Positions 11,196-29,582 of a stretch of 33,023 nt of DNA are shown here, one piece after another (positions within the stretch are counted from its first letter, which is position 1; each line of letters begins with the position of its first letter). The DNA comes from Candidatus Coprocola pullicola. Its GTDB lineage: Bacteria > Bacillota > Clostridia > Lachnospirales > Anaerotignaceae. A program made the translations under genes and the position numbers. Location of the stretch: assembly GCA_018715395.1 (NCBI GenBank), contig DVLQ01000146.1, positions 1 to 33,023 of the forward strand. Direction: 5' to 3'. A model generated the notes under the pieces. It saw nothing but the letters and a program-made list of their open reading frames with translations. It was not told the DNA's origin and made no database searches.

Positions 11196-11966
11196 ATGAA
11201 AAAACATAAACACATATATTCTATTGATTATTACGCATATCAGTCCAATTTAAAAAAATATCATCCCACATTTAAATTGTTATTTACCATTTCTATACTA
11301 TTTTTGTGTTTATGGACAAACCATATCGCAACTTCTATCTATATTTCAGCAACTATGATGAGTATAAACATATTAAAAAATCAAGTTTCTTTTTGGGATT
11401 ATTTTCAGCTGTTGAAAATACCATGTTTGTTTATTATTTTAGCTTGTATTGCAATAGCCGCCGAAATAGGATATGACAATGGAAAAATTGCTGTCAGTAT
11501 TACAAAAGAAAGTATCTATAAAAGTATTACAGTTATGCTAAGAACATTTGGAGCCGTCAATACACTTTATTTTTTGACATTATCCACGCCTATTGCTGAA
11601 ATCATCCGGGTTTTAAAAAAAACTCCTATTCCCAACATTTTAACAGAGCTGATGTTCATGATATATCGATATATTTTTATACTAACAGAAGTACAACTAC
11701 ATTTTAAACATGCAGCACAGTCTAGACTTGGATATATAGATTTTAAAACCTCTTGCTATACTTTTGGAAATTCTATGGCAAACCTGCTGATAGTATCTTT
11801 TCAAAAAGCAAACAAATATTATGATGCTATGCTTTCCAGATGTTATAACGGAGAACTTTTATTTTTGTATGAAAAAAGAATTTTTCATATACCCATTTTT
11901 ATTGGCGCAGTGTTATATGGCATCAGTATCATTTTTATAGATATTTTATGTAAGGGGATTTTTTGA
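11196..11966 (+). CDS. cbiQ: Cobalt ECF transporter transmembrane protein CbiQ
   Basis: The T-component (coupling transmembrane protein) of the energy-coupling-factor cobalt importer. 256 residues with about five hydrophobic helices, including LFTISILFLCLWTNHIATSI and IPCLFIILACIAIAA, plus the C-terminal coupling region with AAQSRLGYIDF and the later LSRCYNGE motif that docks to the ATPase. The start is supported by AGAAAGG 8 bases before the ATG. It is the first gene after the B12 riboswitch, and cbiO follows after a single base. Being first in the operon is unusual, because cbiM-cbiN usually precede cbiQ. Confidence 0.88.
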   Translation: MKKHKHIYSIDYYAYQSNLKKYHPTFKLLFTISILFLCLWTNHIATSIYISATMMSINILKNQVSFWDYFQLLKIPCLFIILACIAIAAEIGYDNGKIAVSITKESIYKSITVMLRTFGAVNTLYFLTLSTPIAEIIRVLKKTPIPNILTELMFMIYRYIFILTEVQLHFKHAAQSRLGYIDFKTSCYTFGNSMANLLIVSFQKANKYYDAMLSRCYNGELLFLYEKRIFHIPIFIGAVLYGISIIFIDILCKGIF

Positions 11967-11967
11967 T

Positions 11968-12792
11968 ATGAGCAACCGACCTGTTTTATGTCTAAAAAAC
12001 ATTTCCTATAGCTATGACGGAAAAACAAATGCTCTTGAGGATGTGCAGCTAAACATTTATTCCAATGAAAAAATCGCTATTTTGGGTTCCAACGGAGCGG
12101 GAAAATCCACCCTTTTTTTGTGTATGAATGGAGTAATAACACCTGATAAAGGAGAAATATGGTTAAACGATGTCTTCATCACCAATCAAAATAAAATGGA
12201 ACTGAGAAAAAATGTAGGCATCGTTTTTCAAGATGCAGAAAGCCAGATTGTAGCTCCTACTGTTTTATCAGAAGTTTCATTTGGTCCTATGAATTTAAAA
12301 CTGCCTCAAGAAGAAGTAAAAAAAAGAACGCATCAAGCATTGCAATATATGAATCTTACATCATTTTCCCATAGACCTCCTCACTATTTAAGCGGCGGAG
12401 AGAAAAAAAGAGTTACCATAGCAGATATCATTGCTATGCAATCCAACGTCATTTTATTTGATGAACCTACCACTGCCCTTGACCCATATCATCAAAAGGG
12501 ATTGGAGGAAGTACTGCAAAAGCTGTCTCAAGAGGGAAAAAGTGTCATTGTATCCACTCATGATATGGATTTTGCATATGGTTTTGCTGAGAGAGCCATT
12601 GTTTTTGATAATGGCAAAATCATTGCCGATTCCAACATAGCTACAGTTTTTGAAAATGATGCTGTGCTAAAAAAAGCGCATTTAAGAAAGCCATATCTAT
12701 TTGAAATCACACAATTATTGAGAAAAAAAGGAATTTTAAAAAATGATGGCAATCAACCAAAAAGTGTGAAAGAACTGGAAAAATCGTTATAA
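11968..12792 (+). CDS. cbiO: Cobalt ECF transporter ATP-binding protein CbiO
   Basis: ATPase of the cobalt importer, 274 residues. Motifs in order: Walker A GSNGAGKST, Q-loop VFQDAESQ, ABC signature YLSGGEKKR, Walker B VILFDEPTTALD and the H-loop STHDMD. The C-terminal ~50 residues form the usual extra region of ECF ATPases. It begins one base after the cbiQ stop and is followed 24 bases later by cbiM, so the genes are clearly co-transcribed. There is only one ATPase gene, as expected for group I cobalt ECF systems, where the ATPase works as a homodimer. Confidence 0.93.
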   Translation: MSNRPVLCLKNISYSYDGKTNALEDVQLNIYSNEKIAILGSNGAGKSTLFLCMNGVITPDKGEIWLNDVFITNQNKMELRKNVGIVFQDAESQIVAPTVLSEVSFGPMNLKLPQEEVKKRTHQALQYMNLTSFSHRPPHYLSGGEKKRVTIADIIAMQSNVILFDEPTTALDPYHQKGLEEVLQKLSQEGKSVIVSTHDMDFAYGFAERAIVFDNGKIIADSNIATVFENDAVLKKAHLRKPYLFEITQLLRKKGILKNDGNQPKSVKELEKSL

Positions 12793-12816
12793 AAAATTTA
12801 GAAAGGAAGATGTAAT

Positions 12817-13566
12817 ATGTTCAACAAAAAAAAATGTGCTGTTTTTTTGGCAGTTTTATTGACAGCAGTCTTTGCAGTGATGCCGGTAAGCTACGCAATG
12901 CACATTATGGAAGGTTATTTGTCTGCAAAGTACTGTGTGGCATGGGGTGTCATTGCTCTGCCTTTTATCATATGGGGCATGTTTTCTATCAAAAAGATAC
13001 TAGAAACAAATCATAAAAATATTACTTTGCTGGCTATGTCAGGCGCATTTATATTTGTTATTTCATCATTGAAAATACCTTCTGTAACAGGGAGCTGTTC
13101 TCACATGACAGGCACAGGTTTGGGAGCTGTTTTATTCGGCGCTGCGCCTATGGCTGTTTTAGGATTGATTGTACTTTTGTTTCAGGCAATATTATTAGCT
13201 CATGGAGGTATTACTACACTGGGAGCAAATACTTTTTCTATGGCTGTTGCGGGACCATTTTTGTCATTTGCTGTATATAACATTTGTAAAAAATGTCATT
13301 TTAACAAAAAAGTAAGTGTCTTTTTGGCAGCTTTTTTAGGAGATATTTTTACGTATTGTATCACAAGCATACAGCTTGCAATAGCTTACCCTTCTCAAAA
13401 CGGAGGTATCATGGCGTCGGCAGTAAAATTTTTAGGCGTCTTTGCTCCAACACAATTTCCTCTTGCTGTAATAGAAGGCATTTTGACAGTTATCATTATC
13501 ATTGCTTTGCAAACTTATGCTATGCCGGAAATGAAGTTAATCAACTTTATAAAGGAGGAAGTATAA
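12817..13566 (+). CDS. cbiM: Cobalt ECF substrate-binding membrane protein CbiM
   Basis: Substrate-specificity component that binds Co2+. 249 residues, beginning with a cleavable-type signal segment (FLAVLLTAVFAVMPVSYA) directly followed by MHIMEGYLS. In this family the mature N-terminus Met-His-Ile-Met-Glu-Gly is needed for metal binding, and the second conserved His lies in SCSHMTGTGLG. Several hydrophobic helices follow. AAAGGAAG lies upstream of the ATG. cbiN starts one base after its stop. The nickel paralogue NikM is the alternative, but the B12 riboswitch and the CbiN partner point to cobalt. Confidence 0.93.
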   Translation: MFNKKKCAVFLAVLLTAVFAVMPVSYAMHIMEGYLSAKYCVAWGVIALPFIIWGMFSIKKILETNHKNITLLAMSGAFIFVISSLKIPSVTGSCSHMTGTGLGAVLFGAAPMAVLGLIVLLFQAILLAHGGITTLGANTFSMAVAGPFLSFAVYNICKKCHFNKKVSVFLAAFLGDIFTYCITSIQLAIAYPSQNGGIMASAVKFLGVFAPTQFPLAVIEGILTVIIIIALQTYAMPEMKLINFIKEEV

Positions 13567-13567
13567 T

Positions 13568-13876
13568 ATGAGTAAAAAAAATAAAATAACTATTGTAATA
13601 TTATTATTGATTGTAGCATTGCTTATATTTGTTCCATTATTTGCACTAAAAGAAGCTGAGTTTGGCGGTTCTGATGATGCAGGCAGTGTTATGATTGAAC
13701 AAATCAATGGTACATATGAGCCATGGTTTACTCCTGTTTTGGAAAACTGGCTCGGCAGAGAACTTCCCGGAGAAATAGAAAGTCTTTTATTCTGTGTACA
13801 AACAGGAATTGGCGTAGGAATATTAGCCTTTTGTATGGGACGATTTGTAGAAAGAAAAAAATGGGAAAATAAATAA
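13568..13876 (+). CDS. cbiN: Cobalt transport protein CbiN
   Basis: Small accessory subunit of the cobalt importer, 102 residues. It has two membrane helices (ITIVILLLIVALLIFVPLFAL at the N-terminus and TGIGVGILAFCMG near the C-terminus) that enclose an extracytoplasmic loop with FGGSDDAG and YEPWFTPV, the standard CbiN layout. CbiN is required with CbiM to load cobalt. It is the last gene of the operon; a terminator follows 90 bases downstream. Confidence 0.92.
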   Translation: MSKKNKITIVILLLIVALLIFVPLFALKEAEFGGSDDAGSVMIEQINGTYEPWFTPVLENWLGRELPGEIESLLFCVQTGIGVGILAFCMGRFVERKKWENK

Positions 13877-16899: not shown

Positions 16900-17450
16900 A
16901 CTTCAGAAACCTCCGGCGCTATAATAAGTTCGACAATCAAAATATAGTAGCAGGAGGTTTTGTCAATCCATGACATAAGAAGTTTATCATATTGCAAATG
17001 GAGATATAAATATCATATTGTGTTTGTGCCTAAATATGACAGATAAGTAATATACAAAAAACGAAATGCCCATATTGAAAGAATATGAAGAGCAATAGCC
17101 CAGGTGTAAATATCGTAAAAACAGAATGTTGTTTAAATCATATACATATACTGATTAAGATTGCACTGCATTTGAATATATCTAGTTTTATGGGATATTT
17201 AAAGAATAAAAGTAGTTTAATGTTGACAGGTATGTAAATTTAAAATACAAGTATGAAAATCGCATTTTTGGTGTAGAAGATATTTTGTGGATACAGTAGG
17301 CAGATACGAAACAGCAATGAAAAAATACATCAAAAATCAGTTAGAAAATGATAGCATAAACAATCAAATCATTTTAAAAGAATTTACAGACCCGTTTATG
17401 GGTGAGTCGGTGAAATAAGACAAAAAAATGCCCCCAGTAGGGGGCAGCCG
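16900..17450 (+). mobile_element. Decayed IS200/IS605 element with tnpA remnant
   Basis: The left end has the inverted pair AAACCTCC...GGAGGTTTT (about 16908-16960). tnpA pieces follow from 16970 to 17418: WRYKYHIVFVPKYDR at the start and YFVDTVGRYETAMKKYIKNQ plus KEFTDPFMGES at the end, broken by several stops and frame changes. After the final stop comes the hairpin GCCCCC-AGTA-GGGGGC (17430-17445), typical of an IS200-type right end. It is on the opposite strand to the similar remnant at 14540-14985. The exact outer limits are uncertain. Confidence 0.75.
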
Positions 17451-17580: not shown

Positions 17581-17856
17581 TTATATTCTCTCCAAAGAAG
17601 CAAAAAACATTTCATAAGAGTCTTCCCAGCCTTCTCTTGGGTAGCTGGCACCGCCATTACAGCTTTTTAGTAAATTGGAAAAATATTCCTCCCCCTCTGC
17701 AAACAGTTCTCCCACAGTCATCGCAAATCCACTTTCTGTTGCCAGTTGGCAAAATGCCAATGCAGGGTCTTTTGCCTGTTTGGTTTCAAAAAGCATTTGT
17801 TTGAAAGCCTCATCTTTTTTTGCTTTTTCCAGCAGCTGAAATAACTTTTCATTCAT
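17581..17856 (-). CDS. Nif11-like leader/domain protein
   Basis: A 91-residue protein resembling the Nif11-like leader peptides of RiPP precursors. It has an N-terminal helical segment EKLFQLLEKAKKDEAFKQML, then DPALAFCQLATESGFAMTVGEL (the typical 'aleva-like LA..GF..t..EL' block), and a Gly-Gly site in LKSCNGGASYP. The tail after the GG is 23 residues, ends in EGWEDSYEMFFASLERI and has no Cys, so a lanthipeptide core is doubtful. The ORF track starts at 17886, but AGAGGGG precedes the ATG at 17856, 16 bases after the upstream dehydrogenase stop, so the two are probably co-transcribed. No maturation enzyme or exporter is visible nearby. Confidence 0.6.
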   Translation of the reverse strand: MNEKLFQLLEKAKKDEAFKQMLFETKQAKDPALAFCQLATESGFAMTVGELFAEGEEYFSNLLKSCNGGASYPREGWEDSYEMFFASLERI

Positions 17857-17872
17857 TTGCAACCCCTCTTTT

Positions 17873-26206: not shown

Positions 26207-26905
26207 TTAAAAAAATAAATTTCCTGCTGCATTTACCACACTGCAAACAAAAATCCCTACCATAGTAGGCAATAAAAAGGAAGTAATCGTCCATTTGACG
26301 CTTTTCGTTTCTTTTGCAATGGTCCATAGCGTTGTAGCGCAAGGAAAATGATTTAATGAAAACAATATTGCACAAAGTGCTGTCAATGCCGTCCAGCCAT
26401 TGACTCTTAATATCTCTCCCATTTCTGCCAATCCGGATACTTCTGTAAGCATGCTGCTTTGACAATAGTACATCAAAAGAATGGGAATGACAATTTCATT
26501 TGCAGGAATACCCAATATAAATGCCGCCAATATGATTCCGCTTAATCCCATAACACTGCCTAGGGGAGATAGCATTTGCGAAAACCCTTCCAACAGTGTC
26601 ATATCTCCCATAGTAATGTTTTGCAGCAGCCATATCAATGCGCCCGCAGGAATGGAAACACATATAGCTCTTCCCAAAACAAATATAGTTCTGTCAATGA
26701 CACTTCGCATGATTACTTTTAGAATCTGAGGTCTTCTGTAAGGAGGCAGCTCCAACGTAAAAGAAGAAGGAATCCCCTTTAATACAGTAGCGCCTAATAT
26801 TCTGGAAACAGCCAATGTAACCATAACAGAAAGCACTAACACAATCATTACAAACATTGCCGCCAAAAAAGGATTTCCCTCTGCAAAAAAAACACTGGCA
26901 AGCAT
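26207..26905 (-). pseudogene. FeoB-type ferrous iron transporter, C-terminal remnant
   Basis: 232 residues that match only the membrane C-terminal half of FeoB. They show ELPPYRRPQILKVIMRS, the Gate-domain segment DRTIFVLGRAICVSIPAGALIWLL, the GIPANEIVIPILLMYY block and the final NGWTALTALCAILFSLNHFPCATT motif. The GTPase (G1 GXXXXGKS) domain and the first helices are missing. Homologous residues continue upstream of the ORF-track Met (NGWGFPTIIM, like the CNGRFPT block of FeoB) until a stop at about 26951, with no start codon or ribosome-binding site. So the gene is 5'-truncated, probably by a deletion that ended at the terminator of the neighbouring lipoprotein gene. It could be translated from an atypical start, but it would lack the energy-coupling domain. 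Confidence 0.75.
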
Positions 26906-28046: not shown

Positions 28047-29582
28047 TTACAAATAATACCAAACTTCTTCTCCGGTCCAGATACCTTTTTTGATTAAAAA
28101 ACGGATTGCTTCTTGTTTTTGTTTTATAGACAACTCTTTCCATAATGAAAAAAAGGAAATGGTATCTGTTTGCAGCCATTGATTTTGCTGTAAAAGAGTT
28201 TTGGTTTTTTGGAGCATATTTTGCTGATTTTGCAATTGCATTAATTTTTGGTTGACTTCTTTTATCAAAATATCATTTGCTTTTTGCTCTCCCAATAAAG
28301 CAATATAGTTTTCTTTTTGCCTTTGACAATGCAATATGCCTTTTTGACATTGTTTGATTTCTTGAGAAAATGTATTGTTTTGATATTTTTTATAAATTTC
28401 ATCAAAACAATTTTTCTCTGAAATATATTGTAATAATAATTTTTCTGTTTTTTCATCCGTTTGGTTTCCCGACAAATTTTGCATAGTACATTTTTTTTGC
28501 AGCTTTGCTTTACAAATATAATCAAATACAATCCCCTTTTGCTGATTCCTTCTCTTTTTTGCCTGCATTTTGCTTCCGCACTTTTGGCAATATAATATTC
28601 CAGAAAGCAAGGCGTATTCATTTTCTGTTTTTTGTTGTTGTGTGTTTGGTTTATTGCGTTGCAATATATTTTGTACTGCTATCCATTGTTTCCCTGTCAC
28701 AATGGCTTTTTGTTTTCCTTTTGCTACAATCCAATGTTCTATTTTTTGTCTTGGAGCAGATTTTTTTGCATAATTTCTTTTGTTGTATGCTAACAATCCA
28801 TAAATATCAGAGCATTCCTCTTTTGAAAATGTCACAGTAGCTTTCTGTTTTAAAAAATATTCTCTGGCTTGTTCATCTGCATGACAATAGACAGGATTGG
28901 ACAATATTTCTTTGATACCTATCAGAGAAAAAGGCTTGTTTTGTCTGGAAAAAATTTTTTCCTCTTCCAGTTTCCTTTTCACCGCTGAAACAGAACAATA
29001 TTCCAAAAACAACATATATATTTTTTTAGCCGTCATCATTTCAAACTCATTTTGTTCTAAATAGCAAAAAGAATGTTCTTTTTCCACCGCTCTTTTTGAT
29101 ATAAAACCCAAAGGAGGCGTACCGCCTAACCAATACCCCTTTTTTGCCAAATGCATCATATTATCTTTGACTCTTTCTGCAATGGTTTCTCTTTCCAGCT
29201 GAGCAAACACAGACGCCATATACATCATCGCCCTTCCTGTAGGCGTTGCAGTATCAAACTGTTCTTGAACGCAAATAAAAGCGATGTTCCATTTTGAAAG
29301 CTGTTCTACTAATTGGGCAAAATCTCCCACATTTCGGCTGATTCTGTCTAAACGATAGCATACAATATAATCCAGCTTTTTTTGTTGCGCCCACAAAAGC
29401 ATATTTTGAAACTGAGGTCGCTCTTTATTTTTTGCTGAAACGCCTTCTTCTGAAAAAATATGTATCTGATGTTTTGTTCCAAAACGAGCTTCAATATATT
29501 TTTTGCAAATCAAAATCTGATTTTCAATGGATTCTCCCTTTCCTGTTTGTTTTGATTTTCTACTGTAAATAGCAAATTCCAT
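28047..29582 (-). CDS. Large serine site-specific recombinase
   Basis: A 511-residue recombinase of the resolvase/invertase large-serine type. The N-terminal catalytic domain (1 to about 150) has AIYSRKS with the nucleophilic Ser7, GVSAKNKERPQFQNML, and the catalytic Arg cluster YRLDRISRN. The recombinase domain follows (about 165-290; NPVYCHADEQ). Next come a zinc ribbon with GILYCQKCGSKM and CKAKLQKKC (about 330-365) and a Gln/Lys-rich coiled coil. Such enzymes integrate and excise phages, ICEs or developmental elements like skin. No integrated element, attachment site or partner gene is visible in the window. The ribosome-binding site is weak (AAGGCGG). Confidence 0.92.
   Translation of the reverse strand: MEFAIYSRKSKQTGKGESIENQILICKKYIEARFGTKHQIHIFSEEGVSAKNKERPQFQNMLLWAQQKKLDYIVCYRLDRISRNVGDFAQLVEQLSKWNIAFICVQEQFDTATPTGRAMMYMASVFAQLERETIAERVKDNMMHLAKKGYWLGGTPPLGFISKRAVEKEHSFCYLEQNEFEMMTAKKIYMLFLEYCSVSAVKRKLEEEKIFSRQNKPFSLIGIKEILSNPVYCHADEQAREYFLKQKATVTFSKEECSDIYGLLAYNKRNYAKKSAPRQKIEHWIVAKGKQKAIVTGKQWIAVQNILQRNKPNTQQQKTENEYALLSGILYCQKCGSKMQAKKRRNQQKGIVFDYICKAKLQKKCTMQNLSGNQTDEKTEKLLLQYISEKNCFDEIYKKYQNNTFSQEIKQCQKGILHCQRQKENYIALLGEQKANDILIKEVNQKLMQLQNQQNMLQKTKTLLQQNQWLQTDTISFFSLWKELSIKQKQEAIRFLIKKGIWTGEEVWYYL

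Follow-up and report, generated by a model that had tools for sequence, protein, structure and literature searches.

Nif11 proteins were first described alongside nitrogen fixation (PMC2887384). In Nif11 precursors conservation ends at a Gly-Gly, and the motif ELSDEELEAVAGG stands just before it (Haft et al. 2010, PMC2887384). The protein of 91 residues described here resembles the N11P precursors of TIGR03798 in its leader-like helices, in a Gly-Gly some 69 residues from the start and in a tail of about 22 residues. Its family differs from them in having neither ELSDEELEAVAGG nor a hypervariable Cys/Ser/Gly-rich core, and it also comes without a large paralogous set and without maturation or export genes. 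It is rather likely that the protein is complete, uncleaved and stand-alone, with a five-helix Nif11 fold, and that its role is that of a small binding or adaptor protein in the cytosol. The Nif11 superfamily itself is known and the novelty would lie in a non-RiPP member; no description of such a stand-alone family was found in the open-access literature on Nif11, which is largely without subscription papers.

The window, i.e. the whole stretch of 33,023 nucleotides that was analysed, comes from Candidatus Coprocola pullicola. The original prediction had reported a reading frame of 91 residues without stating its strand, a tail without cysteine after the Gly-Gly and a hydroxyacid dehydrogenase as neighbour. 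All three were confirmed, and the strand is minus (Table 1). The start codon is an ATG at 17856 and the plus strand across 17581-17856 is riddled with stops. The tail after the Gly-Gly reads ASYPREGWEDSYEMFFASLERI and has no Cys, and the 91 amino acids show no apparent signal or transmembrane segment. The dehydrogenase lies upstream on the same strand with 16 nt between its stop and the small gene; its best NCBIfam model is TIGR01505, with a score under the cut-off of that model. A hairpin followed by a T run is situated about 135 nt past the stop codon of the small gene. The dehydrogenase and the small gene probably form one transcript because there is a Shine-Dalgarno-like sequence, the gap is only 16 nt and the terminator closes the pair.

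Table 1. Features of the small gene, its surroundings and the related loci referred to in the text.
Feature	Position	Strand	Remarks
Small protein gene, putative Nif11 fold	17581..17856	-	ORF, 91 aa + stop, MNEKLFQLL...SCNGGASYPREGWEDSYEMFFASLERI
Predicted C-terminal helix H5, residues 77-90	17587..17628	-	W-x-D-x-Y-x-x-F-F-x-x-L; AlphaFold2, mean pLDDT about 71-79
K-S-C-N-G-G, codons 64-69	17650..17667	-	Loop preceding the last helix, conserved as [KR]S-x-NGG; class-wide alignment
Shine-Dalgarno-like GAGGGG	17863..17868	-	6 nt before ATG, from sequence
Beta-hydroxyacid dehydrogenase, 288 aa	17873..18739	-	PF03446 + PF14833; 3-hydroxyisobutyrate/tartronate-semialdehyde reductase type
Rho-independent terminator	17429..17446	-	TGCCCCCTACTGGGGGCA then TTTTTTT; downstream of the small gene
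SCIFF peptide	L123 194-334		Own genome, contig C11; beside its maturase
SPASM radical SAM SCIFF maturase	L123 457-1833		Own genome, contig C11
Two tandem Nif11-fold copies	L052 4039-4691; L053 7796-8449		Divergent from feoA-feoB

The small gene is real and not a chance reading frame, because homologues with dN far below dS are carried by 27 of 58 genomes in the host's family and, by profile search, by 21 of 391 genomes of a class sample. A phylum-wide sample contained a homologue in 5 of 399 genomes, and all four full-length ones were from the same class. Matches were found in ten further contigs, nine of which hold true relatives. The gene is single-copy in its own 3.0 Mb assembly and mostly a single chromosomal copy elsewhere, with two copies in tandem in two genomes. 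From these searches it is a mostly single-copy chromosomal family, scattered over the class Clostridia with its full-length pattern kept. A tree of 34 members was poorly resolved and allows no judgement between transfer and loss.

An origin from a mobile element or phage was rejected. The plasmid search gave no match, and a record labelled 'Bacteriophage sp.' (MT836210.1) contains ordinary bacterial genes together with the homologue and has the appearance of a mislabelled bacterial contig. Of two IMG/VR matches, one is separated from the viral part by a recombinase gene and falls on the host side; the other (L131), at a contig end with phage-like genes, may be viral or bacterial. The search of viral contigs with the class members also gave two extra sequences for the alignment. 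In the window, an ORF of 511 amino acids (28047-29582, minus strand) resembles by sequence a large serine recombinase, a possible sign of an integrated element.

The Nif11 leader features proposed originally correspond to a genuine similarity when compared with HMMs, but the protein stays below the cut-off in both models. PF07862 matches residues 5-51 with 20.8 bits (E=4.8e-4) against a gathering cut-off of 23.8, and TIGR03798 gives 18.3 bits (E=0.002) against a curated cut-off of 32.3. Two relatives in the class (G083 and G237) exceed the gathering score of PF07862 with 24.3 bits, and this domain is found at E<1 in 13 of the 21 class-wide members. Alignment with hhalign of the class-wide homologue profile to canonical precursors, a set of eight Nif11-containing proteins from the same class, gave a probability of 95.5% (E=1.3e-8). 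Judging by these comparisons, the N-terminal half and the leader half of Nif11 precursors are related. The protein differs from the PF07862 domain not only by its score but also by a conserved C-terminal loop and helix, both of which are outside the model. A marginal match (residues 7-24, E=0.053) was obtained to the NHLP or nitrile-hydratase-like leaders of TIGR03793, but the protein is 37 bits under that cut-off and does not have the long NHase-like leader.

The tail had been described as conserved in character, and its identity is indeed close to that of the leader. Class-wide the mean pairwise identity is 0.35 in the leader and 0.32 after the Gly-Gly, and within the family the values are 0.54 and 0.49; in canonical Nif11 precursors they are 0.41 and 0.13. 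In the window's own genus (g1) dN is lower in the tail than in residues 1-69 (0.055 versus 0.132), with dS near saturation. The tail changes somewhat faster than the rest in genera g3 and g6, with dN well below dS throughout. These rates indicate that the whole protein is under purifying selection, including the tail after the Gly-Gly. Near-invariant residues across the class include A12, D15, C36, G43, S65, N67, G68, G69 and D79, of which C36 is the sole conserved Cys and D79 is invariant, and F84 is found in 19 of the 21 members. The [KR]S-x-NGG stretch has a mean pairwise identity of 0.68 in the class-wide alignment. Genus g6 has lost S-x-NGG but retained the last helix, which is unexpected for a processing site.

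Two AlphaFold2 models were built from shallow alignments of 10 and 12 sequences. Both predict helices at residues 3-14, 16-27 and 31-41, and the second adds helices at 48-65 and 77-90 with a low-confidence loop at 66-76. The pLDDT around S-x-NGG is about 56-58, a low confidence in the loop that leaves any packing of the tail helix tentative. Foldseek and a sequence search of PDB rendered no meaningful solved relative.

The original prediction left room for an orphan RiPP precursor whose maturation takes place in trans. The canonical processing motif ELSDEELxxVxGG is replaced in this family by [KR]S-x-NGG, and the hypervariable Cys/Ser/Thr/Gly-rich core that defines N11P is missing. True precursors in the class carry LTDDELDxxxGG or ISDDQLDQAAGG before unrelated tails (G235, G240, G147 and G276). 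From its sequence the protein is not a usual Nif11 RiPP precursor, because the tail is conserved, the canonical motif is replaced and S-x-NGG is lost in the sister clade g6. The reported absence of RiPP enzymes nearby was upheld and extends further than the locus. Neighbours outside the family are, from sequence, ordinary household genes (among them rsmG, a HIT protein gene, queH and enolase), and no shared maturase neighbour was found in any locus mapped. A domain search of the own genome found no C39, LanC-like (LANC_like) or YcaO domain, and its sole SPASM radical SAM protein is the SCIFF maturase, so that no free SPASM enzyme is at hand. C39 is absent in 29 of the 38 carrier genomes. Maturation in trans is thus unlikely, judged on a search that covered C39, LanC-like and YcaO domains and, among radical SAM enzymes, those with SPASM.

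A further reading is a RiPP precursor whose core is conserved and whose maturase is unlinked, comparable to those of PQQ, mycofactocin and SCIFF; conserved cores are known among cofactor-type RiPPs. The Nif11-like leader and the S-x-NGG loop followed by a conserved Trp/Tyr/Asp-rich segment are consistent with this. However, the own genome has none of the above enzymes to spare, the motif before the Gly-Gly is not canonical, the S-x-NGG is missing in genus g6, the loci have no maturase neighbour in common and a helix is predicted for the tail, which makes such a precursor quite improbable. A bolder form, in which [KR]S-x-NGG and W-x-D-x-Y-x-x-F-F together would be the substrate of an unlinked and unrecognised enzyme giving a household peptide or cofactor scattered over Clostridia, is very improbable.

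Support for the other possibility raised originally, a Nif11-fold protein that stands alone and does a different job, comes from the conservation over the full length, the single copy and the lack of RiPP machinery, and this is the reading preferred here. The chain would be left uncleaved at the Gly-Gly, and four Nif11-type helices would be followed by the [KR]S-x-NGG loop and then by an amphipathic fifth helix with W-x-D-x-Y-x-x-F-F that may pack onto the same domain. Its fold suggests a small protein-binding or adaptor protein of the cytoplasm, which might bind its partner through the surface that serves Nif11 leaders for docking on enzymes; the conserved loop, D79 and C36 would make up the specific site. 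The whole molecule probably serves an ordinary cellular job. A family with a conserved full length and tail and no RiPP genes is a candidate non-RiPP Nif11 protein, and its presence in cultivable anaerobes, such as the native host Anaerotignum lactatifermentans DSM 14214, makes direct study possible. For genome miners it is a caution that a gene with a sub-threshold Nif11 match and a Gly-Gly need not be an orphan RiPP.

The job of a stand-alone protein might be sought among its neighbours, and a link to the dehydrogenase gene had been proposed. This holds in part. According to tblastn over the loci, the dehydrogenase precedes the small gene in four of the five species of genus g1 (the window and the loci L040, L042 and L043; by genome, the window, G029, G030 and G028), but in no other genus examined, hence the linkage is not general. 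In the fifth species (L041, G031) the dehydrogenase is missing from the locus and the small gene is placed 20 nt after a glycosyltransferase. That the protein is a subunit or regulator of the dehydrogenase agrees with the 16 nt gap, the common strand, the terminator after the pair and the repeated arrangement in the genus, but given the fifth species and all other genera it is highly improbable.

Another neighbour is found in three sister genera within the family (g2, g3 and g4), where the small gene adjoins feoB in 13 of 14 genomes, mostly directly downstream with a spacing of 22-115 nt. It follows feoB in all seven genomes of g2, in G009 and G015 of g3 and in G018 of g4, and in G017 (g4) it is about 0.7 kb downstream. 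In G014 and G016 (g3) it is tandem-duplicated and divergent from feoA-feoB. In G010 (g3) it stands behind metK, and the feo genes are not beside it. No feoB was found beside the small gene in g1, g6 or the mapped class-wide loci outside the family. The intergenic region of L052 contains a long palindrome, TTGACAAGGG-N10-CCCTTGTCAA; a conserved regulatory palindrome between the small gene and feoA was rejected since it is present in one genome only.

Many Feo loci of Firmicutes have a gene for a small protein downstream of feoB (PMC8749426). With this parallel, the protein could be a Feo accessory in place of FeoC or the FeoB-associated Cys-rich protein (PF12669), binding FeoB or tuning its GTPase. 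The comparison concerns position only, the small gene being a neighbour of feoB in these three genera; the window protein has no match to such Pfam families and no Cys-rich motif. The adjacency in two orientations has survived a rearrangement and hints at a functional tie to Feo, which is the only partner lead with positional support. Inherited synteny is nevertheless the simpler account because g1, g6 and the mapped class-wide loci have no adjacent feoB. With the exception in G010, and with genus g1 keeping only the C-terminal half of FeoB, about 8 kb off in the window, a role as Feo accessory is unlikely. This half is encoded by an ORF of 232 amino acids (26207-26905, minus strand) with FeoB_C and Gate domains and no G domain. 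It stays open in four members of the genus (the window, L041, L042 and L043), a count that does not include L040, which is cut by the region end.

A nitrogen-fixation-associated Nif11 protein would fit the name of the family and its original description (PMC2887384), but this is extremely improbable and was rejected after a search for nifH, which exceeded its curated cut-off in only 5 of the 38 carriers, the own genome not being among them. Elsewhere in the window, four consecutive genes (11196-13876, plus strand) resemble by sequence the cobalt ECF transporter genes for CbiQ, CbiO, CbiM and CbiN.
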